From Bryum argenteum (lineage: Eukaryota > Streptophyta > Bryopsida > Bryales > Bryaceae): a DNA stretch of 64,000 nt. Location of the stretch: positions 1,413,409-1,477,408 of the forward strand of contig CM073328.1 of NCBI GenBank assembly GCA_037043015.1. Direction: 5' to 3'. Made by a program: the position numbers and the translations under genes. The notes beneath the pieces were generated by a model. The model was given only the letters and a program-made list of their open reading frames with translations. It made no database searches and had not been told where the DNA came from. Positions 20,841 to 64,000 of this stretch are shown here, piece after piece (the stretch's first letter is position 1; every line of letters starts with the position of its first letter).

Positions 20841-22390
20841 CTAGTGGGACCCGTGCCGTTGAGCACGTTCAACTTGGATTGCCTAAAGCTATAAAACATT
20901 CATAAACTTCAAATAAGTTTATACGAAAAATATTAAAAATACATATCGAATTTATATATTTAGATTAATAAAATATACATCAATGGTCTCAAACATGGTC
21001 TCTATTGGATCATTCCTCAAAATGGGTATTGACCGTTGGAATCCCTTTACTCTTTGTAAAAGGGTATTATAACATTCGTTTGCGGGTTCACTCTTGAGCA
21101 ACCATAGGCCATGAGTGTATATCTTATAATCATGGACGAAATCTCACCGTCTTCATCAAAAGGCCCTATAATCCAAGATGCTATCCTTGATGTAACATAC
21201 ACATCGGTAGCTAAACTAAATTTAGCTACTTTTGATCCATAAACACTCATTAAAGATGGATCCACCCAAGGCCGTCTTATTCTATCTCGCCTCCAATTCT
21301 TTTTGTGATGGATATGCATAGTTGGATAGCGGAGGAAACTCTATCTTACATGCAAATCCCCAATCACAAACACCTATGTACATATTATCTTCTTCTCTCG
21401 TGTAATAAGATGTTGTCGGAGACAAATCACAATGTATGCTACCATTTATATACGTAAATAGCATACCAAATAAAAAGTGCCAAGACAATCGGATTCGTAG
21501 TCGTTGAAACAACTTCACATTGTCGCATCCACTCCTGGCTCCATACGTGATTTTCCATTGCGCTTCAAGACCATACTTCTCAAAGTTCCAAAGATTCCAC
21601 CATCGCATATATCCATGCGGTTTAGAAGGATGTATGGCAAATAATTTCATAAATAGAGGATGGACCAAAGAACAACTTGTGGCTTCTATGTTCATTGATT
21701 GAAAACTATTTCTATGAACAAGACTAATGAAGGCTTTACAAGCGTACTCCTCTTCTCTTGGAATGAAATCGACTCCTATTATGTGACACTTAAAAATCAC
21801 ACCGTAGCTACGTCTAGCAACCTCCCTATTACCGTTCAAATCAATAACCTCCGCATCGAGTGGGAGGAAATGCAACAAAGATCCATCTAACGGATCTTTG
21901 TTTATCCCATGTACTAACCTACGAGGTTCAATTACTAATTCATCAACTCGGCATCAAGCCATGAAATTTTTGTCATTAAAGAGTCAAAATTGGGATCAAA
22001 AGGATCTAAAACTTGAAGCATCCAATTTTTTAAATTAGTGGTACCACTATTGACCTCCTCGCAAATAAGACTATCAAACCTCTCAAAAGACATCCGCTAC
22101 CTATTTCTTTCTAACACATTTATATCTTTTTACTATCTAAACACCTAAAAAAACTAAAGACTACTTCTAGTCTTTTTATTTTATATTCCAATTTTAGAGC
22201 TAACGCATAGATCTTCCTATCTTTTAACCGTAGGTCTAAAACAATCTTATCTCTTTGAGAGAAGTTCCTTTCTCAAAAGACCAACAGTCTACTCCTACTC
22301 TTTTTACTTTCAGTTCCTACTTTAATTCTAAGTCATAGATTTAGCTACAATCTACTTCTAGTTTTTTTACTTTCTATTCCAATATTGGTT
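20841..22390 (-). mobile_element. Non-autonomous or truncated Helitron copy with kinase cargo
   Basis: On the minus strand the element ends at 20841 with CTAG followed by a host T. A perfect 5-bp-stem hairpin (CGTGC-TCAACG-GCACG at 20867-20852) precedes it, which is the hallmark of a Helitron 3' end. The sequence is highly similar to 51026-53000, including the kinase-like gene, but lacks about 540 bp of the kinase N-terminal region. The left boundary near 22390 is where similarity stops; a 5' TC end is not proven. No Rep-helicase sequence is present. Confidence 0.7.
21047..21890 (-). pseudogene. Protein-kinase-like pseudogene (Helitron cargo, short copy)
   Basis: Two overlapping minus-strand frames (21878-21282 and 21319-21047) match the kinase-like gene at 51188-52643 almost residue for residue. 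The glycine loop (ARRSYGVIFKC), the HCDLS catalytic segment and the CDWGFAC segment are recognisable. The N-terminal third is missing and the frame changes just after HCDLSP and again near KKNWRRDRIRRPW. This copy keeps a Trp codon (RIRLSWHF) where the other copy has a stop, so the two copies decayed separately from an intact ancestor. Confidence 0.7.
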
Positions 22391-24002
22391 GTGTGGATAC
22401 AGGAGGCAAGTCTCCATGACGGATTCCAGCGCGGAACCGTCGTGTGAGACAAAGCCTCCTGTATTGTAATATAGATGGGACAATCTACAATTGCCTTTTT
22501 GGCATTATTGAGAAAATATAACACGATATCAGACCTTTTCTTTTGGATACAGAATGAGTCCAGCTCAAAAGCCTGGCGACATTGACGAGGAGTTTGCGTG
22601 CCATGTAAATCATGTTGGTACAATCTTCCACTCTCAAATAGAAAAAAAAAGAGGCAAGCCTTCCACTGTGCAATTTTGATGAACACAAATGGTTTACTTG
22701 AAGTACCTTATTGCTGGAATTTGACGTACATTTTTATTTATTTATTGAGAAATATTTAATATTTGGTGCTTTTTGTATTTAAGAAATAAATTAGTGTAAT
22801 TATTTCTTTATTATTGGTGGATTTTTGGAAAACAAGTGCCTTGTTTGGATTTTTGGGTCATTCTGTAGTCAATTTTTATCATTTCTTTGCATCGTAGATG
22901 CAAATCGGTTGAGTTTATATGTTCTGATATACGGTAATAAAAAAAAGGAAGACACTTGTTGTTAGTGGGTTCTTTTGTGATGTGGCTAATCTGATGAGGT
23001 TTGTGTAATTATACATAAGTATGTTAAGCTTGATACCCTTGTAACATTTTGGGAGGCTAACGAGGATAAAGAAGGCACCATGAGCACTTTTTGGAAAGCT
23101 ATGGAGTGGGTTATAAGAACAATATCATCTTCATTTTTACTTCTGTCCTCTTAGCCGTGTCATTGTTTAGAATGATACAATTATAAATTGGTATTTTGCA
23201 CTCAATGAAGGGATTTTTGTACATAGAAAAATTATCACGAGATACACTCTACATCTATTCCCAAGAGAAGCATCTCTCTTCAGTTAAAAGCACGTGGTTT
23301 AATCATTGCAGTACAATCTTTTCTCTTTCTTATTTTTACCAATCAATAAAGTAATCAATTGTGAAGAGCTATGGATTTTTGTTTGGATTTTTTTGAATTG
23401 ACTTTGTTTCAACCATGAACTCCTCTCGCAATTTGGAATTTCATCGTCACCATCACATATTTACCGCTGACATTCCTCGAATACTTCGATCCAGCTTGAT
23501 GGCACAAGAGCCACATGTTACCAAAGAATGCCGCAGCACACTGGCAAACTGACGCCGGTGATCTGTCCAATCCGCAACACCTGGCTTTTTTTAACTTAAA
23601 CTGTCCTAAATGACTCCCACATGCTCAACACTCCATCTGGCAACGCCATATCCAGCTAGCGCCATGCCCCCAATCCAGCACCCAGCGCGCAACCCGCGTC
23701 ACGCACCCACGCCCGCATCACACTCATCATTCCACTCACTTTACCATACTCACCACCCTGTCACCCACCCCGAACGCTCCAATTCCTCAATCCCAATCAC
23801 CCCTGCCCAGACTACGAAACTCTCGATCACCCATACCCAGAATAGATTCTCAAGCCAATTGCATTCAAGTAGGTCGCGATACGAGTGCACAGTCATTGAT
23901 TGCATGGGCACATCCTTAGGTTAAGAGTGATGGATTGAATGCGGACTCGATCTTGCTAGTGTTGAGGGAGTGGACGGATCGAATGCGGAGTGGTTAAGAG
24001 TG
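22391..24002. other. Intergenic region, no gene recognised
   Basis: A minus-strand reading frame at 22686-22345 gives no recognisable domain. The stretch 23600-23900 is C/A-rich and looks like 5' flanking DNA of the oxidoreductase gene. No RNA gene was seen. Confidence 0.5.
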
Positions 24003-38806: not shown

Positions 38807-40790
38807 ATGGCGATCGGTCAGGGGACTTCGGAGGTGTTGGGCGCGCTAGACAGAGCACGCACGCAGTGGTACCATTTCACCACAATTATCATCGCCGGCA
38901 TGGGATTCTTTACCGACGCGTATGATCTCTTCTGCATCAGCACCGTTGCGAGGCTGCTTGGGAGATTGTACTACTACGACCCCAGTGTGCACACGCCCGG
39001 TGTTCTTCCTCCGAATGTCGCCGCTGCCGTCAACGGCGTCGCCCTCTGTGGCACCTTCTGTGGCCAGCTCTACTTCGGTCAGTAGCACCCGATCACGTAA
39101 TTAAAATCGTGCAATGTCTTTGTTCAAAAAATGTGGTGGTGGCCATTTGCTGCACAGGATTCGGAATCGGTGAAGAAACGTATTGGGTGTTGGACTTGCA
39201 GGATGGCTTGGGGATCGGCTGGGGCGAAAACGTGTCTACGGCTACACGCTCGTGCTCATGATCATCACCTCGATAGCGTCGGGTTTGTCATTCGGGAGCT
39301 CGGCGAAGGGGGTGATGAGCACGCTCTGCTTCTTCCGCTTCTGGTTAGGGGTCGGCATAGGAGGTGATTACCCATTATCAGCAACAATCATGTCAGAGTA
39401 CGCCAATCAGCACACGCGAGGCGCGTTCATCGCGGCCGTGTTTGCCATGCAAGGTGATAATCCACTGGGAATAAGCCGTTGCATGATTGCGGAGGTTCGG
39501 AACATTATGCTAAGAATGTGATGACTGCAGGCATTGGGATTGTGGCGGGCGCGACGGTGTCCATCATCGTGAGCTCAATATTCCGCCGAAGCTATCCGTC
39601 GCCGGCGTTCGATGTGAACGAGGTCCTGTCGCAACCACGAGAAGCCGATTACGTGTGGCGAATCATCTTCATGTTCGGGTCAGTTCCTGCCGCCGTGACG
39701 TTTTATTACCGCATGCAGATGCCGGAGACCGCGCGTTACACCGCGCTCGTGGTCGGAAACAACCGACGCGCCGCGCAGGATATGGGCCGCGTGCTGCAAG
39801 TCTCATTCCCGTCGATCATCGACAACCCCGTGGAACAGGGGCGAGGTACGCACCATCTTCCTACTCCTCCCCCCCCCCCTATCACGCACTTTCCTCGCAA
39901 CTCGTAACGCAATTTCGTATCCTTAAATTGCAGTGCGCGAGTACGGGCTGACATCGAGGAAGTTCTGGCGGCGTCACGGCATCGAGCTTCTGGGATGCAC
40001 AAGCACGTGGTTCCTGCTGGACATTGCGTTCTGTTCGCAAAACTTGTTTCAGAAGGACATTTTCACGGCGGTGGGGTGGTTGCCGCCGCAGAAGACGATG
40101 AGCGCGTTGGAGGAAGTTTTCATGGTGGCACGCGCGCAGTCACTGATCGCGCTTTGCTCAACAATCCCGGGGTACTGGTTCACAGTGGGGTTGATCGACA
40201 TAGTGGGACGCTGGATTATCCAACTCGTAGGCTTCTTCTTCATGACTCTCTTCATGTTCATCATCACGTTCATGTACTATGAGCTTCGGGGTCAGCCCTG
40301 CGGCGACGACGGGAAATACTGCGGCGGCAACCACGTCGCATTTCTCGTGCTGTACGCGTTCACATTCTTCTTTGCCAATTTCGGCCCGAACGCGACCACG
40401 TTCATCATCCCGGCGGAGCTTTTCCCCGCGCGCTTGCGATCGACCTGCCACGGAATCTCGGCCGCGGCGGGCAAGGCGGGCGCGATTGTGGGCGCGTTCG
40501 GATTCTTGTACGCGGCCCAGGGAGTGTCACCAAGCTCGCGGGACAAGGGCTACCCAGACGGGATCGGACTCAAAAACGCCTTTCTGCTGCTCTCGATCAT
40601 CAATGCGACTGGATTCTTGTGCACTTTCATGTTGCCGGAGACCAAGGGGCGGTCACTGGAGGATCTGTCTGGTGAGAATGATAATGATCAGCGGCGCGAC
40701 TCCTCTGTGCTTCATCACGAGCTTGATGACAATGACGAGAAGCAAGCGTGGGACCCCGCGCTGCGGTCGCCGCGGATACCCAGCATGTAG
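38807..40790 (+). CDS. PHT1: PHT1-family inorganic phosphate:H+ symporter, 4 exons, 564 aa
   Basis: Exons 38807-39077, 39202-39453, 39531-39845 and 39934-40790 join at GT-AG sites (all phase 1) to give 1695 nt. The product is a major-facilitator transporter of about 12 membrane segments. Visible hallmarks are the MFS loop motif [10 protein letters not shown] at residues 91-100, the PHT1 signature [14 protein letters not shown] at 144-157, and [11 protein letters not shown] before the central loop. The C-terminal half has the [30 protein letters not shown] segment. It should import phosphate across the plasma membrane with protons. The C-terminal tail after [10 protein letters not shown] is acidic and cytosolic. 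Many flowering-plant PHT1 genes have few or no introns in the coding region, so three introns hint at another plant lineage. Confidence 0.95.
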
Positions 40791-45296: not shown

Positions 45297-46428
45297 TCAA
45301 TGCAAGTCTGGAGGAGTTTCCGCTATTAACTCGACACTTTCACATTGCGGTTGCTCCTCTCTGATGACAGGTGTAACTCCTCGCCCTTCACGTGGCCGCA
45401 TCTCCCATGCAATCGAGGGGTCCGCATAATCCATTGCCCCTTCCGCCACCATAGCATCTATCACTCCAGATGGCACTCGTTCCAACCCTGAATTTTCCTC
45501 CAAAATAGACGATGCCTCCACAAAAGTATGGTTGCCTTCTTCACCAATGCGGCCAAACCTCACCCCCTCTGGATTGAAGTAGAAACCTTCATTCCCTGGG
45601 ATCATTGCATGCTCGGTGTTTGCCCATTCAAAAGGTGCCTGCGAAGACGTTGTCTCTACTGGTAGCGGTAAATTCCTTGTAACCGGTTCTTGATGTGCTC
45701 TATGAATTGGACTATTACCAACAGCTTCTCCAATAATGCCCTCCCCCTCTACCAACTGACTTCTAGGTACCGCATCAAGTGGTCTCGGAGTTTCTTCTGT
45801 CCCTCCATCATTAGTACTCGCCGTCCTCATCCTTGATGCGTTCGTTGTTCTTGGTTGGGTATCATCATCTACTATTGCCGATTGTGCAACCGTCTTCCGT
45901 CTTCTCTCCAATGGCTCCACAGATTCTGACTCCGTGTCAGAATCATCGGAAACATGATCATCACTATCATCTTCATCGGTTGTAATGAACCTTTCTTCTT
46001 CAGATTCTTCTTCAGAATCTCTTTCATCCCCCTCTTCAATTTCATCTTCAGTATCTTCTGCATGTACTGTTGAAGGTCCTGCTACGTCTGCCAAATTTTG
46101 TGGTGGTGATTGTCTCATGAAGCCCTTGAATTCTCGTAGTAGGGTATTGTACAAAAATGTTGTTCGGGCTTGAGATTGATCGAGACAAAATTTGTTGCCC
46201 TTCGAATCCACCCGTCAAGATCTCGGGAATGGATGTCGTAATCCCAAATGCCACCAAATACGTCCATTTAGGATGCAAATATGATTGAACAAGTCTACGC
46301 AATTCCATAGGATCTCTCTCTAGCTTGTCAACGCTTGAAGGCACCCTTCCAGCTGTCCAAGAGTCCAGAAAAAGGATTGGGAGTACATCTTTTTTCTTCG
46401 GCAAATTCTTGATAGCTCTCTGTATCAA
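45297..46428 (-). CDS. Downstream reading frames of the ParB-like gene (acidic C-terminal region)
   Basis: Two further minus-strand open frames (46428-46048 and 46211-45297) follow the 1011-residue frame with no other gene between. The first has a hydrophobic core (KKKDVLPILFLDSWTAG ... LRRLVQSYLHPKWTYLVAFG) resembling the end of an alpha/beta fold. The second is strongly acidic (EDTEDEIEEGDERDSEEESE), then Pro/Glu-rich, and ends in a stop at 45297. They are probably parts of the same ancestral gene, now in different frames, either spliced or decayed. No function is assigned. Confidence 0.4.
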
Positions 46429-46478
46429 CCGGGTGTTCCATCAACACTACAATACTTCCAAGCGCTTGTACTTTGCGT

Positions 46479-49400
46479 CTAACCCCGCCGCCCCCTAAAA
46501 TTCTTCTTGTAATCTTTAACGGTGTCTGATTGGAACGCCCAGATCCCTCTCACGCACGTCATTCCTTCTATGTCACCCAGAACATCCTGCATCTCGTCGC
46601 CATAGGTTTCTCCTGGTGGAAATAAAAAGACTATAGTCCATCTTAAAATCTTACTCATCCACTTTCGTACCTTACCAAGTACGCTTTTGTATTCTCCCCT
46701 TGTCCAAGCTTTGTCCCGGCCATCCATACTCCCCCTTCGACAATCGAATACCCACAAACAAGGCATTTGCATTTCATGGTATTCATCACTAAAGAATCTG
46801 GAACTGCCTCTAATTGGAATCGTTCCCACACTATGGTCTTCATCTCCTTGCTTGACATCAACTCTCCAATCCCATCGGAAATTTCCTCTTGATCTCCCTC
46901 TTATTCCCAAACCTTCGTAACCTCTACCACCAATATTCACGTCTTCGAAATGTTGTTTCACATGGGCGTTGATTTTCTCTCCAAATTTAACCAAACTCCC
47001 CACGGTTTTCACGGATGGCATTGACCAAGTATTCTTCATGTCTTTGTCTATTTCCTCTGCAAGCGCTTGAAACTGTCTTGCCTTCTCTCCACCGTACCGC
47101 TCAACATCTATGTTGTAGAAATCTTCCATGGACGTTGGGCGCTCCATTCCTTTAGATACTATCAACCACCGCAATGCATTTTGAACTGCCCGTCGACGTT
47201 GTAGTCGATCTACTATCCATTCGAGAGTTTGTTTTTCCATAGAACCCCTATGAGCCCTATTAAAATAGTACTTTTGGGAATTCCTCTTTCCATTTACAAT
47301 AGGTTTAGCTACCATCTCCTTAGCCAATTGTAGGCACTCCTCAGGTGGTACCCTTGTTAAAGGCCTCAACCATGTTTTCTCCATCTTTGGTTTTTTTGGT
47401 CTTAGATCCCTCGTACTATCCAACCCCTTCTCCTTAGCATACTTCTTCCACTTTTTCTCATCTGCTTTACTATACCATAAACAACCATCTTCGTAGTCTT
47501 TGCACACCTCCAAAACAGCTTTGTAGCATTCTTCATTCTCGTTCCAGGCATGCCTAGTCCAATCCAACATCCGTTTTGCCACTAGTCCCAAAGGCTCCCG
47601 TGAAGTCATTTGTACGCTAAGATGCAGCGCACTCACTGCCATAGCTATTGCTTTGGCCCGGTTGGCGTCGTGAGCTCTCACCTCCGCATTGGGTTTCCCA
47701 CAAGACTCCCAGATCTCCCTGAGCTTTACCAATTGGTCTTGTAGTGACATGTAAAATTTTCTCTCAAACTGCTTTGCATTGATCCGCACAGAGGCCTCAA
47801 TGTAAAACTGAGGGTTGTTGTATACAATAAATTTTGCTGCCCGTTCTGCAAATATACTTGCATATTCTTCTTGAGAGAGTCTTTGGGCCGCCAATTGTTG
47901 TTTTGCAAACTTGCATGCTTCTATAATGTGTTGGCCATCCACCGGTTCCCAAATTATTGCATTTCGTAACCATTCCGTTTTTAAAATGCCCATCGTATTG
48001 TCTTGTTGCCTTTGATACTTCTCAAATACGGTTTTGAAATGGTCCACTGTATCCTCCTTCCTGAATGGAACCTCTTTTTCTACTATATTGCCATTACCAT
48101 CCACTCTCTTTTCAAGAAATGCAACTGGCCGAAGTGTAATGGGGGACACGAGGTCCTCATCATCTCCCCGTAGCCGTTCATATATCTCAGCCATACGCTT
48201 CTTTGACAATGCCCGATGGTTGGTTTCTGCAGTAACTGCACGCCGTACATTCTCCGTGCGAATCTTAAACACCGCCTCCATCCCCCACACATATCCAGCT
48301 TTAAATTCCTCCTCTGTTGGGAATGCAACTGTAGGGCCTTTAGTACTTTTCTCCACTTCTCTTGGTTCTTCCTCATCGGAAGAAGGGTTGTCCAAATCTT
48401 CTGATCCTCCGCCCTCTTGCTCTGCTCTGGGAGTTTCTGTTATTACTGTGTTTTGTTGTACAACACGTACTTGCCTTCTAGCAGCAGGTGTTTGAGTTTG
48501 TGGAGCTCTTGATGTGGATGATCGTCTTCCACGTCCTCTAGTTGATTCGCTGCTAGTCTGAGTTGGTGCTACTGATGTAGCTAGTCTTGCACTCCTTGAA
48601 ATATTAATACTCGTAGGAGTAGTAATATTATGAGCGCTTCGAACTTCTGCTGTAATTGGAGCTCCACCATGTGTACCTGTTTCAGAACTTTCAGGTCGTC
48701 CTCGTGATATTCCTCCTCCACTTGATTTGTTTCCCCTCGATACCGCAACATTTGGCACACGTGATGTGGATGCTGGACTTTGAGTAGAAGCACGTGCTGC
48801 ACTTCTTGCCCTCCTCACGTTAGAAGACGGACCCACTTCTGTAGCCTTCTGTGTTGGTGTTGGTCTCGTGGCACTTGGAGGTTGTGTTTGTGAAGAAGGT
48901 GCCTCTACTGGCTCTGTTTGTAGCACTGGATGTGTGACATGCTCTGGTTGTGATAGAATATCATCCCTTACTCTATTACTAACCACATCTGCATACGATC
49001 GATCAGGACTAGTGTGAGGTCCATGTGATGCCGCTCCTGACACTACGAAATCTGCTACGTTAGGTCGTTCTTGCTGCTCGATTAAATCCCTTCTCTGCCG
49101 AATATACTGATTTCTCATTTCCAATATCTCCTCAGGATTGCACTGCCTAGCTTTCACAATGGCAGCAGTACGTTCCATTCTCACGTCTTCAGTCAAACCT
49201 TTCCAAAATGATGCTAAAGAGCGCAATGTTCGGAGCGGTTTTGCAGCTTCAAACAACAAATTAGGAATTTCTGCCAGCATATTCCCCTTCTCAATCTTGT
49301 ATTGGGTCACTACATGTGCACGAGTTCGGACTTTCACTTGAACCAACCCCTCTGGAATCGCTACAATTTTCTCAATCTGACCGACGTCCTTGCCGATTGC

Positions 49401-49514
49401 ACAAATCTCTTGACCACGTACCAACAGGTAGTCTGAAATCCATAATCGAGCTTGGTCCTTGTTTGGAGCCAATATCATCCACCCGTGCTCACTCCATTGA
49501 CTTTGAGGTGCCAT
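46479..49514 (-). CDS. Large unrecognised protein with ParB-like DGQH motif and methylase-like tail, 1011 aa
   Basis: A single open frame of 3036 nt starts at the first ATG (49514). Residues 1-160 are a compact N-terminal domain, and 180-400 are low-complexity Ser/Thr/Arg/Pro-rich. Residues about 400-620 hold a segment with WEPVDGQHIIEACKFAK (DGQH at 526-529) followed by KFIVYNNP. This recalls the ParB/sulfiredoxin fold, whose signature is an Asp-Gly-x-His-Arg-like turn. A long helical region follows. From about 920 the tail reads LWVFDCRRG ... KAWTRGEYKSVLGKV ... LRWTIVFLFPPGETYG, which resembles an adenine-methylase core, but without the catalytic DPPW/DPPY residues. ParB plus methylase fusions are known from bacteria and phages. 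The call is by eye and tentative; it may be part of an unknown mobile element. Confidence 0.5.
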   Translation of the reverse strand: MAPQSQWSEHGWMILAPNKDQARLWISDYLLVRGQEICAIGKDVGQIEKIVAIPEGLVQVKVRTRAHVVTQYKIEKGNMLAEIPNLLFEAAKPLRTLRSLASFWKGLTEDVRMERTAAIVKARQCNPEEILEMRNQYIRQRRDLIEQQERPNVADFVVSGAASHGPHTSPDRSYADVVSNRVRDDILSQPEHVTHPVLQTEPVEAPSSQTQPPSATRPTPTQKATEVGPSSNVRRARSAARASTQSPASTSRVPNVAVSRGNKSSGGGISRGRPESSETGTHGGAPITAEVRSAHNITTPTSINISRSARLATSVAPTQTSSESTRGRGRRSSTSRAPQTQTPAARRQVRVVQQNTVITETPRAEQEGGGSEDLDNPSSDEEEPREVEKSTKGPTVAFPTEEEFKAGYVWGMEAVFKIRTENVRRAVTAETNHRALSKKRMAEIYERLRGDDEDLVSPITLRPVAFLEKRVDGNGNIVEKEVPFRKEDTVDHFKTVFEKYQRQQDNTMGILKTEWLRNAIIWEPVDGQHIIEACKFAKQQLAAQRLSQEEYASIFAERAAKFIVYNNPQFYIEASVRINAKQFERKFYMSLQDQLVKLREIWESCGKPNAEVRAHDANRAKAIAMAVSALHLSVQMTSREPLGLVAKRMLDWTRHAWNENEECYKAVLEVCKDYEDGCLWYSKADEKKWKKYAKEKGLDSTRDLRPKKPKMEKTWLRPLTRVPPEECLQLAKEMVAKPIVNGKRNSQKYYFNRAHRGSMEKQTLEWIVDRLQRRRAVQNALRWLIVSKGMERPTSMEDFYNIDVERYGGEKARQFQALAEEIDKDMKNTWSMPSVKTVGSLVKFGEKINAHVKQHFEDVNIGGRGYEGLGIRGRSRGNFRWDWRVDVKQGDEDHSVGTIPIRGSSRFFSDEYHEMQMPCLWVFDCRRGSMDGRDKAWTRGEYKSVLGKVRKWMSKILRWTIVFLFPPGETYGDEMQDVLGDIEGMTCVRGIWAFQSDTVKDYKKNFRGRRG

Positions 49515-49544
49515 GTTTACTGTGCAGATATATCTAATAAACAA

Positions 49545-50992: not shown

Positions 50993-51187
50993 CATTTCTG
51001 TTTAGTATTTGATCTTGTTTTCTTACTAGTGGGACCCGTGCCGTTGAGCACGTTCAACTTGGATTGCCTAAAGCTATAAAACATTCATAAACTTCAAATA
51101 AGTTGATACAGAAAATATTAAAAAATACATATCAAATTTATATATTTAGAATAATAAAATATACATCAATGGTCTCAAACATGGTCT

Positions 51188-52643
51188 CTATTTTATTTTA
51201 CGATAACATTCCATTGGATCATTCCTCAAAATGGGTATTGACCGTTGGAATCCCCTTACTCTTTGTAAAAGGGTATTATAACGTTCGTTTGCAGGTTCAC
51301 TACTGAGCAACCGTAGGCCATGAGAGTATATCTCATAATCTGTGGACGAAATCTCACTGTCTTCATCAAAAGGCCCTATAATCCAAGATGCTATCCTTGA
51401 TGTAACATACACATCAGTAGCTAAACTAAATTTAGCTACCTCTGATCCATAAACACTCATTAAAGATGGATCCACCCAAGGCCGTCTTATTCTATCTGCA
51501 TCCAATTCTTTTTGTGATGGATATACATAGTTGGATAGCAGAGGAAACTCTATCTTACATGCAAATCCCCAATCACAAACACCTATGTACATATTATCTT
51601 CTTCTCTGTGTAATAAGATGTTGTCGGGAGACAAATCACAATGTATGCTACCATTTTTATACAGAGATAGCATACCAAATAAAAAGTGCTAAGACAATCG
51701 GATTCGTAGTCGTTGAAACAACTTCACATTGTCAGCATCCACTCCTGGCTCGATACGTGATTTTCCATTGCACTTCAAGACCATACTTCTCAAAGTTCCA
51801 GCATTCCACCATCGCATATATCCATGCGGTTTAGAAGGATGTATGGCAAAAAATTTTATAAATAGAGGATGGACCAAAGGACAACTTGTGGCTTCCATGT
51901 TCATTGATTGAAAACTATTTATATGAACAGTACTAATGAAGGCTTTACAAGCGTACTCCTCTTCTCTTGGAATGAAATCGACTCCTATTATGTGACACTT
52001 AAAAATCACACCGTAGCTACCTCTAGCAACCTCCCTATTACCGTTCAAATCAATAACCTCTGCATCGAGTGGAAGGAAATGCAACAAAGATCCATCTAAG
52101 AGATCTTTGTTTATCCCATGTACTAATCTACGAGGTTCAATTACTAATCCTGTCAACTCGGCATCAAACCATGAAATTTTAGTCATTATTGATTCAAAAT
52201 TGGGATCAAAAGGATCTAAAACTTGAACCATCCAATTTTTTAAATTAGTGGTACCACTATTGACCTCCTCACGAATAAGACTTTCAAATCTATCTGAAGA
52301 CATTCGGTTCTTTTCAGCAGAAAATTCTTCGCTAAAAAACACATTTAATATTATTTTTTCTAAATGTCTCTTATATTCTCTAACCCCTTCGACTTGACTG
52401 CTTAAAAACATACGTTGCAAACTCTGTTTAGATAGACTTTTGAACCAATTTATGACAGTTTCATGAATTTTAGCAAGACACGGTCTAGAAAAAAACCTAT
52501 CCTGATCTTTTTTCTTTCTATGACGGGATCCACGGGTTCCAGACCTTTTTTTTTCGTTTTTTAGGTTGTTCTGCATTGACATTGCTAGGTCCAACATCAA
52601 TTGGACGGGGAGGAGACCCACTCGAACTACTCGTACCGCTCAT
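51188..52643 (-). pseudogene. Protein-kinase-like gene carried by the Helitron
   Basis: From ATG at 52643 the protein starts MSGTSSSSGSPPRPIDVG followed by a Lys-rich stretch. The frame changes in a run of A bases there, then reads on from about 52560 to 51689. A single stop follows (Trp codon in the copy at 20841), then 51673-51188. Kinase landmarks are the glycine loop ARGSYGVIFKC, the lysine segment EYACKAF, the catalytic loop HCDLSPDNILL and DWG in place of DFG (GVCDWGFAC). The APE segment is not obvious. The N-terminal 200 residues are helical and unrecognised. The closest kinase family is unknown. Two separate copies at two Helitron 3' ends show it is stable cargo. Confidence 0.7.
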
Positions 52644-53440
52644 CGTGAATGATATCAAATACTCTACGGTTAGTCACCAACTTACAAACTTCTAATCAAA
52701 AGAAATATATGAAAATGATCCAAGAATAAGTACAATCTACTTCTAAATAATTTTTATAATCAAAATACACAAAAGAAGTACAATCTACTTCTAGTTTTTT
52801 TACTTTCTATTCCAATATTAGATCTAAGTAATAGAGGTGCCTATTTCTTTCTAACACATTTATATCTTTTTACTGTCTAAATATATAAAAAAACTAAAGA
52901 CTACTTCTAGTCTTTTTATTTTATATTCAATCTTAGAGCTAACTCATAGATCTTCCTATCTTTCAACCCTAGGTCTAAAACAATCTTATCTTTTTACCAA
53001 CTAAACATCCAAAAGGGCTATAGCCTAATTTTGGTCTTTTTACTATCCACTCCAATCTTAAAAATCTCAAATTGAAACAAATTTTGAAAATACAGAAGAC
53101 CTTGGAAATTTTTGTACTTTATTCTTGAGGCCGCCTTAGCAAGCCAAGAATACAATGAACATGGATCATTTTTAAATTTTGAGCCAAAAACTGTGAGAGG
53201 CCAGTCTCCAAAATAAAAATTTGAAGAAATGATTGTAATAAAAAGTTTTTAATGCACAAGTTCCGCTTGAAACTAAAAATTTCAACAACGATATTAGTGA
53301 AACTCAATTTGACTTTTTGATTTATACCATTAACACATTGTATATATAACCACGTCCATGCCAAATTATAATCTTAAATTCTTAATTTAAACCCTCCATC
53401 TAAGTTTCTTAAAATAGCTAAAACCCATTTTGGCTTTTAA
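52644..53440. other. 5' flank of the kinase gene, with short subterminal repeats
   Basis: The motif CTACTTCTAGTTTTTTTACT followed by TTCTATTCCAATATT recurs about every 100 bp between 52740 and 53060. It also occurs in the short copy at 22100-22390, in a partly different order. It belongs to the Helitron family. Confidence 0.6.
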
Positions 53441-54413
53441 CCCTTACACGCCCACAATGTCGAAAAACGACATTTTGGATGTACTCCAGAAACTTTGAAG
53501 AGCCATAGCTTCTTCATCCGGACTCCGTTTTGGATGAAATCACTTGGGTTGAGTCCCAAATCAAGTCTAGTTTGTGTGATAAAAATTTCAGACCCATACA
53601 ATGAAGTATTAATTAATGGCATGCATTTTAGTGAAGGCAGCTTTCATTTTTGGAATTTCAAACATGGGGCATGTTTTACCATTGCAATCCAATTAAGTGA
53701 AATCAAATATAGTTTTTCATGTATTTTTTTTACATAATCATGATCCTAAAATGAAACCTAAAAACTTTCTAGTTGGAAGATTTTTAATTCAAATACTTTT
53801 GGTATGAGATTTGCAATGATGTTTCTACAATAAAAAAGTAAACAAATGGATGATTTTTGAGGAGCTAGATCTCCTTCATCCACCGTTGGATTTCGACTTT
53901 ATTTTTTGGGATGGATTCCAAATCAAGTCTAGTTTTAGTGGTAGAAACCTTGACTAAATCGAAGATGTATTGTAGATTAGGCATAGATTTTATTACAAAG
54001 GGTCTAGTTTTGGACTATTCTTCCTTTGTAAAGATTTTGGCAAGATTCACCATTGCAAGGCTATTATTTGAGCAAAGATATTTTTTTGATGATTTTTTTT
54101 GGTTCAAGGTTATTTTTTAGATATAGGTGAACAACTTTCTAGTTGGAGATTTTTTCATTGCAATAGGTCTATTGGTAGTATTTCCACTCTAAAGTGAAAA
54201 TGATGAAATTTTGTAGGCTGTTTTGAGTCCTAATATGTTATGATCTCGCAATCTATGAGGGTTCATGACTCAAATTTTGGTCCACATGACCCACAATAGG
54301 TCTATTACAAGATTGTACGGTTGAGATCTAGATGGCTTGCCTCTATTTTCATCTATGAAATTGTTTTCAAAAATGTGTTCCTAGGCTTGGGACCCCTCTT
54401 GGGCGTTTAGGGG
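53441..54413. mobile_element. TTAA-flanked, piggyBac-like non-autonomous element (973 bp)
   Basis: Both sides have TTAA (53437-53440 and 54414-54417). The left end CCCTTACACGCCCA and the right end TGGGCGTTTAGGGG are inverted repeats. Internal ATGCATTTTAGTGAAGGCAG and similar blocks are shared with 41676-42000. No transposase is encoded. A TTAA duplication and CCC-starting ends are typical of piggyBac, but no piggyBac protein is seen, so the superfamily is tentative. It lies inside the Helitron and is younger. Confidence 0.7.
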
Positions 54414-54622
54414 TTAAAGGCTTTTAGAAGTTAATATAGTATAACAAGAAGACAAATTAAAAAGAAGCAATATGAAATATTAGATATCATAATGATTCTT
54501 TTGTAATCAAGAATCTTATAAATAAAATGATAAGTCAACTTAATGTAATTTGCAATTTTGAAAAAACCAAACAAATTATTAAAACTTATAATAAAAAAAA
54601 TAGATAAAAAAAAAAAAAAACT

Positions 54623-57600
54623 TTATTGTAATAGAATTTCAGAATAAACAACATTGACAGTTTTGAACACCGTATCATCTTGCCGTAGCAAAGCTGCAAT
54701 ATGATTCGAAGAAGTTGCTCTTGAAAGCGCAACATATAGTTGTCCATGATCAAAACTCGGGATTCGAATATCTAATCCTACATACTTTACGGATTGCCCT
54801 TGGGACTTATTAATAGTCATAGCAAATGCCAATCGCACTGGAAATTGCCGCCTAGTGAAATGAAAAGGCAAGGCGGTAGAAGATGGAGTTAAAGAAATTC
54901 GTGGTATAAAAACATGCTCGCCAAAGATGCGGACTGAGAAAGTAAACGTGCTTCTAAAACACGGTGCGAGAAGCGCGTGAGAACCATTCTAGCTCCATTG
55001 CAAAGTCCCCTGTTTAGGAGCAAGGTTTCGCAATAAAATAATAGGACATCCAATTTTCAAGTCGAGTTTGGCCAATGGAATGCCGGACAAATCCAATGAG
55101 TTCAAATACTCGATGGATATGCGGCATGATTATCCGCACCAACTTCAACAATATTTGAATCAAGACTCTAAAAGTTTCGAGATTGCCGGGAAATATTGCA
55201 AAATCTCCTTGTTGATCAAATCAACATCTCATTCTGAGCACTTAAAATAGTCCGATCTCGAAAATATTGATCCTCATGAGAAGATATATCGCCAATGTTG
55301 TTGTAGATATTGTCGATAAGAGATCGAAACGAAGAAACAATATTAATGCAAGTATGCAATAGAATCATATCACTACTTGAATCATCAAAATTAGAGCCAT
55401 CGCCTACTTTTAATAACCATTGAGCATATTCCCTATCTTCATGCGATCGTTTGACAAACGATATTGATGGAAAGGGGCAAGATTATAACATGTTGCCATA
55501 TTATAGATCGTCGAAGGCGTGGCTCCAACAATTTGAGGTCCGGAACCTCTTGGAATAATCTGGTAGGATTTGTCGGAAGTCACCTCCAAATACAACAAAG
55601 AGCACCACCCAAAGGAGAATTCGAATCACGAATGTCTCGTAATGATCGATCCACCGCTCCGCACAATGTCGGTGTTGCATAGGAACTTCATCCCAAATAA
55701 TCAAAGAAGCCTCACGAAACACATCCGCATATTCGGAGTTCTTGTTTATAGAGCACATGGAGTATTCATCAACTTCAATAGGAATTTTGAAAGTTGAATG
55801 AGCGGTCGACCTCCATGAAGAAGAAGTGCGGCTATTCCGGAAGAGAGGCAACACATATGACGATTTTCCCTTTGCTTCGCACATTTGCGAGAGACTATGT
55901 TATAGAGAAATGTCTTTCTGTGCAGTGGGGCCATTAACAAAAATACAATACAGTTGGTCCTCAATGGAACTCAAAATGGCATCATAACTATGGCGTTGGT
56001 CTCTATTTAGAAGAGGCTCGTGCTCCCGAACATAAAGTTCAAGTTCTTCACGATTCCATTGCAACTGTTCATTGACAAATCGGTTACCACGATGACGGGA
56101 CCAATTTAGAGTTGAAATTGGCATAGGAGGAAACAAAGAAAGGTTTTTGTTTGACTGTTCACGTAATATTTCATCGATGAGAAAAAGGCCAAAATCGTAT
56201 ACTTCTTCTTCACTTGGTTCAGATAACTCATAGAGTTGGCGAAGACGATGACGCAAGTCATCACACAGATGAGGACGAAATTGTTGCCATAATAACTCGG
56301 GATGAGTGGGGTTGCATTCCGAGAGTATGAGCACAAACAAATTGCGCAATGATGCACCGGTACGCATAGTAGATGCTTCTTCCAAGCACTGTATCCACTC
56401 TCCATCGTCTTGTAATAAGCCTAGAGCGTTACAAGCATCTTTAAAGGTTCCATGTACCACTCCATTCACCGTCCGTAAATCTTCAAATGAGCGAGGCCCA
56501 ACAATAGTTGTCAATAGGAGTCGCAAGTAGAAACGTTCACCTTCACTTGGTCTTGCAAAATACAACCTACCGATTGCAAAGCCTTTTTCGCGGATCTTCC
56601 ATGTGCTCTCAGGTTGTCTCCAAACGTAATGCTGGGGAAACTCTTGATAAGTCAATTGACGGGCATTTTCATCCGTAGCACATATTCTAAAAAACTCTGT
56701 CAATCTAGTTCTTTGGACTTGGCCGCGATTCAAAATAGTCATAGGATCATCGCGAGTATTGAAAACAACACGATGCATCCCTGGCAAATGTAAATGTAGC
56801 CTAACAACATTGGGATCTTCTTCGTGCATCGTCATCTTCAGTAAACGCCGTACAGCCTCCGAGGCTCCAATATAACGTGCATCTAGGTATTGTTTGATCT
56901 CATCTTGTTCCTCCCCAATCCTCAGAGTAGCCCTGTCATGACCTTTATAGATGTATTTATGAATATATTTAACCGCTTGAACAAATGCACAAACTTCAAT
57001 ATTAATATGGTAGTCATACTTTCGAATCAAATCAGGGTTGTATGGAACAACATGGCTATTGTTGAAGAAAAACCCATGTTTTTCAAAACTACGCCCATCG
57101 TTAAGTCGACGATAAAGAGGGTAACCATCTTGGTCCATTGCGCTTTGATCTTGGAAAGATTTGGGAAAGCGTTTTGTGCATTGTCCGGTCTCGTTGAGAC
57201 ATCGATCACGTGTGCATGGTCCATGGACCATGTGTTTTAGAACCATACCAAAAAGTTCGGGATCCTCTTGTTCATCGGGGAACTCCGCACATACTCTTCT
57301 ATCAACTTGACCCGGTTCTCTTATCTTGTCTTCATTGGCAAGAAAGATTAGAAAGTGCATATGGGGCAAAGTCCGCTTTTGGAACTCAATGACATATACA
57401 TGGGCAATGATTTTCCAAAACACCGCATCTTTCGATATCGGCCCACGAGAGCATTGGGTTTAAGTTCAAATACGCGTGCTACAATATCGGGCCGATCACC
57501 GCAGCTTTGTCCAAGTAAGAGAGCTTCTTGTATCTCACGCCAATTCGGATTTGCCGTCATAGTTCCAAAATATCTGGATGTTGGAAAAATCTTGTTATGG

Positions 57601-58993
57601 CCATGGAATCTTGAAACAATTCAAACATGTTGCGAGCACTACCAATATGACTTGAGGGAAGAATAACACGACGCCCTTTGGTTTTCAAGATTCATATTTC
57701 TTTCTCCATCACCTTGTAATGCATCAAAGAAGACCTTGGTAGAGATCGGCACGCAAATCCGATTGATTCATTCGAATATAGCCGAGTCTGTTTTGTTGAT
57801 TCACCAAGCATCAACAATAAATTGTTGAAATAACTTCCCGCCACGAAGAATGGTAGAATATTCAGTGCTCATGGAATAACCGAAAAGCAAAATATTCTCT
57901 TTGAGTCAACCGACCTTCACCATTAGAATGTGTTAGATCTTCATGCCATCCAAGTTCCCCAAATGGAAATAAAACCACGTAGTGCAATGGCAAATAAGCC
58001 GGATGACACTCGTTAATACGTTCCAGAAAATGACCTTCTCCTCTTAGTCGAAGCACAATATCTCGTGTTCCTTGTGGTCGATCTTCCTCTCCAGGTATTA
58101 AAACAACTATTTCACTGCCAGCCGGAAGATTGTAGCGTCTTCGATCCATTTGGCCTTCAAAATGCAAATGCGCAACAACATTTGGAATTCTTCGACCACA
58201 TTGTGGTTGTCGTTGTTGTTGTTGTTCGAACTCCATCAGGATTTGATAAGCTTGTTTGTAGTGTCCATGAAATGCATGATGAGTCCGTAATAATTCTTGA
58301 ATCTCCAACATGGTAGTTTCTGTACACTCTGGATTACGCTCCATTCGAATGTTGATTGCCTCAGTAGTATCAATAAAATATAATTGAGCATATTTGGCTG
58401 TTTCACCAACAGTAGGCAACAACGATCCACTCAAATGTCTTAATTCTCCATGAAATTTAAAGACATATGGACCATTTCCTGCAACATGTGTGTTGGAGTT
58501 TGAAGTACCAAGAGAAGTAAATGCAAAGGCAGCGTTGTATCTCCGAATATTTCTTCGAAATTCTTTAGCTTGATCGCTGTCACATTCAAATAATTGGCGC
58601 AACCGTTGTGGAGGATCTTGTAATAAAGGAAGGTTCACCTTGCCTTTTAGACAACAAGAACCAAATACTGGATTTCGATTACTTGAAGACGTTAATCTTT
58701 CATCACTCCAATGTAGTCCTTGACAATAACTACAAACTCGATCCATGGAACCCAAATAATGGGGCGTCAAATCCATGGGACGAAAAAGTGTCTCACGTCT
58801 TGCATTTCTGTAAGCTATTCGTGCCCTCCCCAAGCGTACTTCATGTGCACTGCCATCTTCTCTAACTCTGCTAATTCTTCGCCGCACGTCGCCTCAATAA
58901 TCGTTCATACATACTTTGACTTTGCTCCTCGGCAACACCTCCGGCTCTATGGCTAGAAAGCAAAGACTCTCCTCCTACCAATGAATCGTCCAT
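54623..58993 (-). pseudogene. Helitron Rep-helicase, degenerate
   Basis: The frame begins at ATG 58993 (MDDSLVGGESLL), with a frame change near 58890. 58887-57862 holds the N-terminal zinc-binding region (CSYCQGLHW ... NPVFGSCCLKGKV) and HPAYLPLHYVVLFPFGELGWH. 57560-55900 holds the HUH Rep nuclease (QKRTLPHMHFLIF; two-tyrosine segment KYIHKYIYKG) and the start of the helicase, whose Walker A is altered (NGPTAQKDIS). 55884-55501 has Walker B (LIIWDEVPMQ) and GGDFRQILP. After a decayed stretch, 54871-54623 has the last helicase motifs ([20 protein letters not shown]). Plant Helitron proteins of about 1300-1500 aa share this order. At least four frame changes or stops make it inactive. Confidence 0.88.
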
Positions 58994-59738
58994 TTTTCAT
59001 GGACAAAAAATATATGTCACCTACAACATTCCAAATGTAAAAATATAAGTTTAGGATATCAAATACTTATTTTCAATATCAATTTAAAACAAAATATCTT
59101 AAAATACATATAAATTTCAAAATAAAATAGGGAATATGGCATATAGACACTTTCAAGATATTTGAAAAAAGTGTTTGAATTATTAAACTTTTGATATCAT
59201 CAATTATACAAGTATCTTTCTACTATAGAGAAAGGGGATACTTACAACATGCATAAATTAAATTCAAAGACGATAAAATTAGAAGCATAAATAATTTTCA
59301 CATTTTTAATTGGTAACAAAAAATTTAAGATTTCAAATTTCATCATTGAGATTGAAATAACACAAATTCCAAAAACCTTTGAATAAAATAATGAATTGAT
59401 TTAAAAATTTAGAGCATAAACTTTATTATCATCAATTCTTCAAGGTTCTTTGTACTTTAGTGAAAAAGCGAAGCTTAGAACAAACATAAATTGAATTCAA
59501 AAAAGATAAAATTGAAAGCATAAATAAACTTCACTTCCAACATTCATAACAACAATTTTAAAAAATCAAATTTCATCATTGAGGTTGAAACAACACAAAT
59601 TTGAAAACCTTGCAATAGAATCAAAAGTTTACTCAAAACTTAATAGCATAATAACAACAATATATTATTTTATTCCAAATAAACGCTACACTATCAATAA
59701 AAAAGCAAAAACATCTAAAGTCTATTTGAACTACAACA
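58994..59738. other. AT-rich spacer within the Helitron
   Basis: Two similar blocks are seen, with ATAAACTTCACTTCCAACAT-like and TCAAATTTCATCATTGAGGTTGAAA-like words at about 59270-59360 and 59500-59600. They suggest an internal duplication of about 240 bp. No coding sequence. Confidence 0.4.
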
Positions 59739-60335
59739 TCAAACATTAATATCTTCTTCATCAGTTTCTGAAATGTGACCTGGCGATTGCGGCAACGGAA
59801 CTATATTTTCTCGAGCCAATGCTATATTTCTATTCAACAACGATCTAGCACGTTGTTCATCTGCAAGCCTTTGCCTACGAATATTGAGAGCAACTAATCT
59901 ATTACGTTCTGATCGAGATTGTTGCTCAATTCTAATTCTATTCCTTGTTGCACAAATTGCCAATGCCGCATTTCTATTTCGAATCATCCGTTGGCGCTGA
60001 GAGTTTGCACGTCGGACCAAAGCTTCTTGTCTGTTCATTTCTGACCATAAGAAAACAAGATCTGGAATAGCTGTCACATCACTTGAAGGAATTCCTTGAT
60101 CCAATAGTGCAGGAATTGGCCCACTGATAGAAGAAAGAGCTACATGATTTATAGAAGGTTCAATTTCTATGCATAAAGAAACAGAGTTTGGAATCTCCAA
60201 TAACTCTGAAGCTAACAATGAGCCTTGAGGTGACATAATCACGGAGATTTCAGATGGTTGTTGTCGTCGTACTCGATCTCTAGCTATAGCGCGTAGTGCA
60301 CGCAAACTTATAGCTTCGTGATGAAATTGATTCAT
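59739..60335 (-). CDS. Arg-rich accessory ORF of the Helitron, 198 aa
   Basis: An intact frame from ATG 60335 (MNQFHHEAISLRALRAIARD) to a stop at 59739. The first half is mixed; the second half is a long basic helix with recurring R-N-x-A / R-x-R patterns (RMIRNRNAALAICATRNRIR ... RSERNRLVALNIRRQRLADE), ending in an acidic tail (ETDEEDINV). It may be a predicted coiled coil or nucleic-acid-binding accessory protein, or the first exon of the Rep-helicase. It is not recognised as the RPA-like ORF known from some plant Helitrons. Confidence 0.5.
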   Translation of the reverse strand: MNQFHHEAISLRALRAIARDRVRRQQPSEISVIMSPQGSLLASELLEIPNSVSLCIEIEPSINHVALSSISGPIPALLDQGIPSSDVTAIPDLVFLWSEMNRQEALVRRANSQRQRMIRNRNAALAICATRNRIRIEQQSRSERNRLVALNIRRQRLADEQRARSLLNRNIALARENIVPLPQSPGHISETDEEDINV

Positions 60336-61197
60336 ATTGATAATAATATGAAACAATGTCTTGTAAATGTTCTGTAATATAAAATAAAATTAGATAAATT
60401 TATCAATGTACAATACAATATTCAAATTCAAAAATCTATTGAATCTATTACAAGATTATAATAAAATTGAGAAATTATAAGATAAGATATGATTTAATAT
60501 GTAACATCCAGATATGTGTATCCTCAAAAAAATAAATTATTTAAGCATCTCATAAATAAAAGATAAAATTGAAATTGAAAATCTATCTATACATCATGCT
60601 TTAGATGATACGTTATATCACTAAATATAATCAATGAAATCAAGGCATGAAATATCAAAAAAAATTATTTCAATATTATATGTGAGTATTACCTACATCT
60701 AATTGAATAGAGTACAAAATATTTCAATCCGTTGTTAAAATAATTCATTAATTGCGTAATATAATACTTGAAAATTTTAAAGTCTATCATTTTTTTCCTC
60801 ATTTTGAGTTTCTAAAAAAACATCTTTAGCCATATATAATTTGATTTCATTGTGGTGCATGATTTTTTAGGGTCTCTTTAGTACTTGATTAGAAAGAATA
60901 AATTAGACAAACTTTAAAATTTATAAACAAAAATATCCTTATTTGTTTGTCACATGATTAGATGTGGTTTTAGTTTTCTAAACTTATGAAGTTTCAAGAA
61001 AAAGAAAAAAAAAAAAAAACAATAATCAAAGATATTGCTCAGGCAATTTTATTTGATTTTTTGGTTGAAAAAGTAAGTTATGACCTACTTACCTACAATC
61101 CATAAAATCAAGCAAATAAAACATCAAAAATATTTATTTTAATATTATATTTTAGAATGACCTACTCCTAATTGTGTAGGATACAAAATAATTTATT

Positions 61198-61625
61198 TTA
61201 ACCCCTAAAGTCCAAAGGCCTCAAAACAGCCACAAACTCTAAAAAAACAACCCTCTTTCAAAGCAAGGTGCAAAATTTCAATTGATGTAATTTTGGGGAT
61301 GTAATCGTACGATCTACTACCTTACTTGTACATGTATATGTACCCTAAATCTTAGATTTGAATTCCTCACCCTTAGTGAGATCATAATGGTCAAACTTGA
61401 ATAAAAATAATTTTTTTCTCTTGCTGCAAAATGTGTTTGAAGGATTAATTTGAGTTGAGGCTCTTCAATACTTTGTCCCTAACTGGGTTTGGATTATGTC
61501 TATTAATTCTTACCCTCAAAGGACCTATAGAACCTCTAGAAATGCGTGATTCTTCACATGGAGGTATGCTGAAATTTAAATACAAAGGCTCCTTTAGACA
61601 GTAAGAAAGGCATGTGAATAATTAT
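61198..61625. repeat. Dispersed repeat, copy 2 (related to 33823-34310), with TTAA|CCCCTAAAGTCC left end
   Basis: It starts with TTAA followed by CCCCTAAAGTCC and then matches the copy at 33823-34310. The matching right end was not found. Its left terminus is like those of the TTAA-flanked elements at 53441 and 63525 and the isolated TTTAACCCCTAAAGTCGAG at about 35287. Confidence 0.6.
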
Positions 61626-62230
61626 TGGATAGAAAATCCGAATGGTGAGATCCTGCCTTGGTACTTTATTTACACACTTACAAAACTAAACTTGAAGAGA
61701 ATTAAAAATTCAAATTGAGGTGAATTTTTGAAGTTTCTGCGACTTAATTGAATTTGGGCAGATTTTGAGAATACATGGGCATACACCACAATTTGGCCAA
61801 TTTTGGACAATTTTAAAATCAAAATTTCAAACTTTGACTACAAATATCTCCTAGAGCATGATGAATTTTTGAGCATGAATAGTCTTTTCTAAAAGGTATG
61901 GAAAAACTCTACAATTTGCGAAAAAATTAAGCTTCAAGCGCTCTAAATTTAGTAAGTCAGAGGCTGACCAAGGGAAACCGACCATAGTATGATCAATTTT
62001 CACTTTAGCAGTTAATGATCAAATAATTGATTAATTGTGCAGTATAATGCTTGCAAATCCCAAAATTCATCATTTTTACCCTCATCTACAAATGGATCTT
62101 AAAAGAACTCTTGAGGCATATAGATGATTCCATTGAGGTGTTTGATTTATTAGGGTCTTTTAATTGACCAAATGAACAAATTGAACAAACTCTACAAATT
62201 TAACAAACAAAGTTCTCTCGATTTAGGTGG

Positions 62231-62502
62231 AGACACCCATAACCAACAGTGACCAATAGCCGATATATCCCTAATTCCTAGATTGTGAAAGAATAGATGT
62301 ACCTCATGTGTATATATTGGTTATTGGTTCTAAGGTACTTTTCACTTTGAAAAATTGTACAAGTTTCAATATTGGGAGATAATTCATGAAAAAATGCTCA
62401 TTCGTCATGAACCTTATTTTCCTCTGAACAAAAACTATCTCCTTATCAATAACCAAAGCTTTGATATGCTAAAATGCCTTAAGTTGTCGGTTATAGGTGT
62501 CT
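62231..62502. mobile_element. MITE with AGACACCYATAACC inverted repeats
   Basis: The left end AGACACCCATAACCAACAG and the right end TTGTCGGTTATAGGTGTCT are inverted repeats. It is 272 bp long, non-coding, and related to the copy at 20399-20763. Confidence 0.75.
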
Positions 62503-63524
62503 GTACTTTAGTGTGTCCAAAAAGTGATACCCCAATCTCACCTTCAGAATAAATGTTCTAAGCTAACCAAATTAACAAAAAAATACAAAAAAATATAATA
62601 ATCACAATTTTTAATCAACATTCAATCCATCACACTCCAAATAACCTCCCTACCTAATTATAAAATTCAATGGGCAAACTTGTTTTTTTACTTACCACAG
62701 TGACCAAAAATGTAACGATGGATAAAAAGTAGTAAAAAGTAGTAATAAATACATGTCGATCGTTCGCAATTGTCCAAGGGTTTTAAAACCTTCGGTCAAT
62801 CCTACAACATCCATAAATTCCACTCCCGGTACAATCTAAGAGCTCAAATGCAATATAGCACGAGTCCTTAAGACTAACCGGAAGTGGAACAAGTAACAAA
62901 TAAATAAATAGATCTCAGCTTCACACCACTTCGTAGAACTCAAAAAAGTCTGTACATGAGCCGCAAAATAACAATAATCAATAAATAAGTGCCAAACATT
63001 GCAAAAAACCACTCTTTCGTGGTTTAAAACTTCAAAATCCAATATCAATAACAAGAAGACTTCATTTGTCATCTAATCCAAGTGATCTCATTAAAAACAA
63101 AGTCTAAGTGATATAACTCTTCAAAGTTTTTATAGTTCATGCAAAATGTTGTTTTTTGACATTCTGACATCTAAGGGTTGAGCATTATTAGAAGCAAACT
63201 ATGTAAAATCATGTGCAAACAGAAGGTTAAAATTCTATTTGAAAACTGCCCAAAACTGGCCAAACTGCAGTATATGCTCATTTCTCCTCAAAATCTGCCC
63301 AAATTCAAATTTAGTTGCATAAACTTCCTTGAAACCGTCCATGCATTGCATCAAATTAAAGCAGCAGGAGTGCAGGACACCATAAATATATTGCAGTAAG
63401 TTGAAGTAACTCTACACCATGGCTTTCATGCTTTGTTCTTTAACAAAAGAGAACACACAAATATTGGAGCAAATCGCTTTTTGGACCTAGCTGTGTTAAT
63501 TCAAGTACTGCAGATGCTGCTTAA

Positions 63525-63799
63525 CCCCTAAAGGAGAGTGAAGCCCGGGTCACTCTGCCTTAAAAAAGATAAGCTGTTTTTACAAAACATTAAACTTTGA
63601 CTGAAAATATCTCAAGATCCGTACGGTCAAATTTTATGAAACTTGGTGGGTAGATTAATTGGATGGCTCTGAACAAGATCCTACGGTTGAATTTCTCAAA
63701 CTCAAGTTTTTAAAAAAATTGTTCAATGATTTCAGAACGGATCGTTTCGAGTCCACTGTTGAGCACTCTACAGTACTCTCCTTTACTCTCCTTTAGGGG
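63525..63799. mobile_element. TTAA-flanked MITE with CCCCTAAAGGAGAGT inverted repeats (275 bp)
   Basis: TTAA lies on both sides (63521-63524 and 63800-63803). The left end CCCCTAAAGGAGAGTGAAG and the right end CTTTACTCTCCTTTAGGGG are inverted repeats of about 19 bp with one mismatch. Non-coding; it shares the CCCCTAAA start with the element at 53441-54413. Confidence 0.8.
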
Positions 63800-64000
63800 T
63801 TAATGGGATGAAAGCAAGTACATATCAGCTGCTCAAAAGCTTTTTCAGGGTCCCAATTTGTTCCCAAAAAAAAAAAAAAAAAAAGAAACTTTTGCAGAGG
63901 AATTGGTAGAGGGGCACAGATGGTAACCATCAATTACAGTAAATAAGTTTGCTGCCATGCCCCATGGTTCATGCCCCCAACAATATATTTTAGTCAGTTC

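Follow-up and report, generated by a model that had tools for sequence, protein, structure and literature searches.

The 64,000-nt window analysed here is a stretch of the genome of the moss Bryum argenteum (contig CM073328.1, positions 1,413,409 to 1,477,408) that contains most of a Helitron transposon with a protein kinase gene inside it. The element occupies the minus strand and extends from window position 51026 to the equivalent of position 65220, with its 5' end 1,220 bp past the window end, inside locus L033. An earlier reading of the window from its letters alone (the original prediction) had described a hairpin plus CTAG|T terminus at 51026, a kinase-like gene, Rep-helicase remains, and an Arg-rich open reading frame (ORF) on one strand, and all of these are present. 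From 5' to 3', the internal order is 4–5 kb of mainly noncoding DNA, the Arg-rich ORF, the Rep-helicase gene (RepHel), the kinase gene, and the 3' end:

51026..64000 in the window (14,195 bp in all), minus strand: full-length Helitron, with ends common to four other copies
60357..64000, on to 65220 with the 5' hairpin, minus strand: 5' stretch, mainly noncoding, defined by copy comparison
59739..60356, minus strand: Arg-rich ORF of 205 amino acids upstream of RepHel, with no Pfam match
54625..58887, minus strand: RepHel (Rep and PIF1 helicase), identified by Pfam matches in copies L024 and L010 and broken in the window copy
51188..52643, minus strand: kinase gene of ~485 codons, with similarity to PF00069 and with Lys, HCD, and DWG motifs
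51026..51051, minus strand: 3' terminus, a short hairpin and 11 nt ending in CTAG, followed by the host T and found at 277 genome places
20841..22475, minus strand: non-autonomous derivative of 1,635 bp, with a 5' end and hairpin, an N-terminally truncated kinase with frame breaks, and a 3' end, defined by comparison with L017

The genome searched comprises 258.8 Mb in 25 contigs. Twenty 10-kb loci were picked by strong terminus and kinase matches, making a non-random sample, and four of them resemble the window over the entire 10 kb. The addition of upstream DNA gave five complete copies of 14,195 (window), 14,168, 14,003, 14,307, and 14,449 bp. The four further copies (14.0–14.45 kb) are ~98% identical to the window copy and have unrelated flanks, and all five copies begin at A|TC and end at CTAG|T. 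RepHel and the kinase thus lie inside one element, and the claim that a Helitron carries the kinase holds. The span first proposed, 51026..60400, was correct at its 3' end and fell short of the 5' end. When 1.5 kb of the 5' region (window 62000–63500) was used as the query (45 matches, the best 40 of 2,649 candidates scored), it was found in full at five genome places, including the window, along with three partial copies (0.9 kb at 95–96%) and weaker matches (other DNA).

The 3' terminus reads CGTGC-TCAACG-GCACG...CTAG|T, with CTAG at 51026–51029 and the host A at 51025 on the plus strand. Its hairpin has a 5-bp stem (CGTGC/GCACG) and ends 11 nt (7 nt plus CTAG) before the element end. The genome search for this terminus, which the original prediction had called for, located the 28-base 3' end, a pattern that already includes the host base, at 277 places with no more than two mismatches (138 + 139) and the reversed control at none, well above anything that chance would give. 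Moreover, 15 of 20 kinase loci that were retrieved without any terminus requirement show CTAG, and the next base is T in all 15 while the flanks differ. The fold of the 3' hairpin barely beats shuffles of its 50-base stretch (z -0.79; 42 of 200 as good). The 5' end was found by comparing copies and consists of A|TC followed by a hairpin of ~65 nt; it occurs at 274 places with up to three mismatches (143 + 131; control 0), and its hairpin is much stronger than shuffles (z -8.8 and -10.5; 0 of 200 as good). When the full-length type is compared with the derivatives, this hairpin has a G-to-C change on one arm and a corresponding C-to-G change on the opposite arm, as judged by eye and without a formal count.

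Empty insertion sites were sought with the joined flanks of five copies (L019, L020, W2, L024, and L011), and paralogues were found for two of them, both short, that fit insertion between A and T without target duplication. The empty site of L019 is an exact A|T, with 27 of 45 matches spanning nearly the whole joined query including the junction (77–87%). That of L020 is an adjacent tandem unit, 97% identical across the junction, in which the paralogue has C at the expected T. The joined flanks of W2, L024, and L011 returned their own halves only, and the flank search found no empty site for any full-length copy, so the case for these copies consists of shared ends and different flanks. The shared ends also contradict a placement of RepHel outside the element bounded at 51026. 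With its termini, the element clearly belongs to the Helitron1 family and has a full-length kinase ORF as cargo. Hairpins occur at both ends of the element; Helitron2 is marked by such hairpins in combination with asymmetric terminal inverted repeats.

RepHel and the kinase could instead represent two nested or adjacent elements, given that the kinase adjoins the 3' end and that kinase-bearing elements without the helicase exist. This is barely credible in view of the five copies that share both ends and an interior ~98% alike among unrelated flanks. In addition, copies of the L011/L027 type join 5' parts of the long element to the kinase end, and the terminal site is the only hairpin plus CTRRT of its kind on this strand in the 3.6 kb of 51025–54640, leaving no second terminus between RepHel and the kinase. 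Elsewhere, at the end of L015 and position 226 of L053 (G000:C2, ~26439225), CTAG is fused directly to the 5' TC of the next copy in a head-to-tail junction. This junction resembles that of the Helraiser circles (PMC4778049), and since the two copies differ in type, it may also have arisen by insertion at a 3' end.

RepHel in L024 and L010 matches Helitron_like_N (PF14214, 8.5e-58), PIF1 (PF05970, 9.2e-81), and Pif1_2B (PF21530, 3.5e-17). The Rep part, of the HUH/Y2 type, has in the window copy an HUH-type motif, PHMHF, and the tyrosines of YIHKYIYK. In no full-length copy is RepHel open from end to end, and L024 has only two stops across 1,099 codons. The Arg-rich ORF upstream is also present as a 216-codon open frame in L024 and L025 and is possibly the N-terminal part of RepHel. 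The Rep piece had no relatives in viral_contigs, a viral collection with little bearing on plants. Genome-wide, there are 110 Helitron_like_N matches, nine of which fall within the five full-length copies. The others include frames open for 1,303 codons (C1:13145357) and 1,122 codons (C6:197435), and the genome therefore contains more Helitron families.

The kinase gene was predicted to be conserved and full-length, and the window copy does not bear this out. Compared with L010 and L025, it is frameshifted in an A-run close to its start (~52548–52556), and an in-frame TAG at 51691–51689 replaces TGG, the commonest codon at this site. The TAG occurs in four of nine long-type copies, which are four of the five full-length copies, with L025 as the exception. 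The read-through protein matches PF00069 (E 1.7e-7), as do all five aligned members (best 4.8e-10), and P0001 scores 31.3 bits, slightly below the cut-off of 31.7. No alpha-kinase model was matched up to E 10. The protein resembles solved kinases only distantly (best E 9.4e-4 with one sequence and 9.8e-5 with a profile), and the best-matching stretches are mostly confined to the catalytic-loop region. Its AlphaFold model is unusable (mean predicted local distance difference test score 33.9). It had no relatives in viral_contigs or genome_contigs and no NCBIfam match, these collections covering viruses, bacteria, and archaea and having little bearing on plants. In the frame of L034 and with rows gapped at a motif excluded, the Lys is kept in 30 of 31 readable copies and the D of DWG in 39 of 41. 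In the glycine loop, ARRSYG is the commonest form (20 of 32 readable copies), followed by ARGSYG (seven), GRGSYG (three), and AIGSYG and PRGSYG (one each); judging from the usual kinase motif, GRGSYG would be the ancestral form. The predominance of ARRSYG over GRGSYG counts in favour of a passenger kinase.

The kinase had been placed at two sites in the window, which greatly understates its number. There are at least 151 kinase matches (150 of 766 candidates scored), and grouping the 150 that were listed at a spacing of 1 kb or more gives 128 separate places. Protein kinases form a very large gene family in plants, and this one might be an ordinary plant kinase family surrounded by Helitron ends by chance, as 8 of 59 kinase clusters (in hand-typed lists covering C2–C5 and the start of C6) have no exact terminus within 2.5 kb. 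This explanation is very improbable because the other 51 clusters do have such a terminus, the protein has only remote similarity to solved kinases, and the scored matches contained no obvious copy standing alone. In this part of the genome and among the scored matches, which Helitron copies crowd, the kinase does not present itself as an ordinary single-copy gene away from the Helitron ends. Two further arrangements of kinase sequence were observed. At G000:C6:3056724-3063892, kinase-fragment matches recur with a period of ~330 bp, all in one direction, and this satellite-like array seems to have expanded from a piece of the Helitron kinase gene. Three kinase places lie ~2.5 kb apart on one strand at G000:C9:15255075-15260756, perhaps as a tandem run of Helitrons.

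The second kinase locus of the window, first delimited as 20841–22390, does have the same terminus and a kinase without the helicase, while its real span is 20841–22475. This derivative is 97.9% identical to L017 over its length. For each terminus, the first 100 places were listed, all exact matches, and 62 of the 100 listed 3' ends pair with a listed 5' end, leaving 38 unpaired. By size, the 62 paired copies comprise 21 of 112–472 bp, 4 of 600–1500 bp, 32 of 1500–1750 bp (the class of the derivative at 20841), and 5 that are longer. For 52 of these 3' ends, a kinase match among those listed lies within 2.5 kb. Sequence was read for six of the remaining 48: three have both ends inside 159, 282, and 300 bp, the 300-bp copy retaining the last kinase codons, and the other three lack the exact 5' motif and have 5'-like sequence nearby. 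Many of the 112–472 bp copies are too short to contain kinase sequence, and the existence of copies of 112–282 bp means that the kinase is dispensable in cis. The co-occurrence of kinase and RepHel holds in the five full-length copies. Two independent retentions of the kinase were considered for the window and rejected, because the second site is a product of internal deletion and belongs to a large size class.

Selection on the kinase was examined in 39 copies, with L026, L039, and L040 dropped. Variants present in at least two copies comprise 64 nonsynonymous, 17 synonymous, and 1 stop, and all variants together comprise 168 nonsynonymous, 63 synonymous, and 8 stop, whereas the neutral expectation, from mutation rates measured in the same element, is 2.52 nonsynonymous changes to one synonymous. 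The nine long-type copies gave 29:9. No purifying selection is seen on the kinase in this shallow test, and its changes look neutral. The occurrence at two sites had been taken as a sign of long-term cargo; with the second site an internal-deletion derivative and 64:17 set against a neutral ~2.5:1, the sequences do not establish the kinase as a long-term functional cargo. RepHel, on the other hand, shows some constraint (69:45 for all variants of the five full copies against an expected 2.68:1, p 0.003), and the two genes differ for all variants (p 0.026). C-to-T differences among the five full-length copies amount to 3.4% at CHG, 1.85% at CG, and 0.22% at CHH sites, and a CHG/CG bias of this kind is typical of plant transposons that are methylated and silenced. 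The copies differ by 170 distinct indel events, 157 of them of 1–2 bp; indels common to two copies form 9 conflicting pairs and substitutions form 10. The frame breaks could be sequencing errors; the conflicting pairs could reflect assembly errors or recombination between copies, which would explain the conflicting substitutions as well.

The kinase may alternatively be a true accessory gene, encoding a nuclear kinase that aids transposition via Rep, host repair, or silencing, by analogy with the RPA or TET genes thought to help other Helitrons. The derivatives would then have lost the N-terminus because the kinase is used in trans. The gene occupies a constant position in all five full-length copies, on the RepHel strand, its catalytic motifs are mostly retained, and the N-terminus in L010 and L025, which reads MSGTSSSSGSPPRPIDVGPSNVNAEQPKKRKKRSGTRG, contains a stretch resembling a nuclear localization signal of the PKKRKK type. 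Majority differences between kinase subfamilies gave w values of 0.99, 0.78, and 0.52, none significantly off 1, the lowest (long type versus mid-size, p 0.14) leaning toward constraint. Nevertheless, the kinase gave no sign of constraint, in contrast to RepHel in the five full copies, which has some; a stop in the kinase is common to four of these copies; and L062, the only further RepHel locus followed downstream (4.1 kb), has no kinase match. On balance, a true accessory gene is possible but rather unlikely. Somewhat more doubtful still is a broader proposal, in which a plant Helitron lineage would encode its own nuclear kinase for transposition or escape from silencing and the derivatives would constitute a mobile kinase gene family.

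Helitrons mostly acquire fragments of genes. The kinase here was probably captured and then co-amplified by the Helitron as a passenger, beside which it may have had an accessory role in the past. As in the family generally, Rep would presumably nick at the 5' TC end, the helicase would peel off one strand, the 3' hairpin and CTAG would end the transfer, and the strand would insert between A and T. At some time, an element would have taken up a whole intronless kinase gene, likely from the host, between RepHel and the 3' end, and full-length elements would have carried it along from then on. Internal deletions would then have produced the ~1.64-kb form (5' end, truncated kinase, and 3' end) and the near ends-only forms down to 112 bp. 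These derivatives could have been mobilised in trans by RepHel, so that the kinase would have become multi-copy by hitch-hiking.

Several observations weigh against a captured passenger. The Asp of HCD is kept in all 33 readable copies, and many copies have long stretches of open kinase frame. Shared stop variants number 1 of 82 where ~4% is expected, which is no significant lack. The test of nonsynonymous against synonymous changes is shallow and draws mostly on non-autonomous copies that are expected to drift, making it weak for the full-length lineage. For shared variants, neither the constraint on RepHel (24:13, p 0.18) nor its difference from the kinase (p 0.12) is significant. The capture step has left no direct trace, as no relic hairpin plus CTRRT, such as read-through capture would leave, lies between RepHel and the kinase, and the absence of an obvious host kinase also counts here, with the proviso that Helitron copies crowd the scored matches and a distant parent could be missed.

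Outside the Helitron, two long ORFs (304 and 1,021 amino acids) without a Pfam match above the cut-off occupy window 45297–49544 on the same strand, beyond its 3' end, and are perhaps another element. The ORF at window 39933–40790 is presumably phosphate-transporter-like and, like the CHG bias, fits a plant genome.

As in Helitron1, the canonical plant Helitron (terminus description in PMC5148889), the element has a 5' TC, a 3' CTRR, a hairpin that stops 11 nt short of the terminus, insertion at A|T with no duplicated target, and a RepHel with Helitron_like_N and PIF1, but it differs in its complete kinase ORF and its ~65-nt 5' hairpin. Plant Helitrons with an RPA accessory gene and semi-autonomous derivatives, such as Mothra, likewise have an additional gene next to RepHel, along with a mother element that retains the accessory gene only and high-copy short derivatives (PMC4683698), although the additional gene here is a kinase rather than a single-strand binding protein and no constraint on it was detected. 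An enzyme unneeded for DNA cutting is also encoded by other DNA transposons, among them Helitron1: fungal Helitrons carry TET/JBP genes, and IS3EU elements carry alpha-kinase genes (PMC12730594). A kinase gene inside a transposon is thus already known from IS3EU, whereas the kinase here matches PF00069, the element is a Helitron, and the host is a plant. Gene capture by Helitrons has been described in maize and Pleurotus (PMC2267711, PMC2575219, PMC4289320; reviewed in PMC6431247; further Helitron literature in PMC5030654 and PMC4905642), and in Pleurotus the captured genes are likewise downstream of RepHel. In contrast to those captures, a complete kinase ORF is present in all five full-length copies here, and the capture of full-length host genes by Helitrons has been called exceptionally rare (PMC6431247). 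The open-licence literature searched, in the parts available, contained no description of a Helitron with both RepHel and a complete kinase gene; subscription papers fell outside this scope, and the result is no proof of absence.

The complete kinase ORF in all five full-length copies offers a clean case for how whole genes enter Helitrons. The copies of 112–282 bp narrow the DNA that seems to be required in cis, including the uncommon 5' hairpin. Moreover, a Helitron that bears a kinase raises the question of whether a transposon can carry a kinase that regulates its own enzymes.

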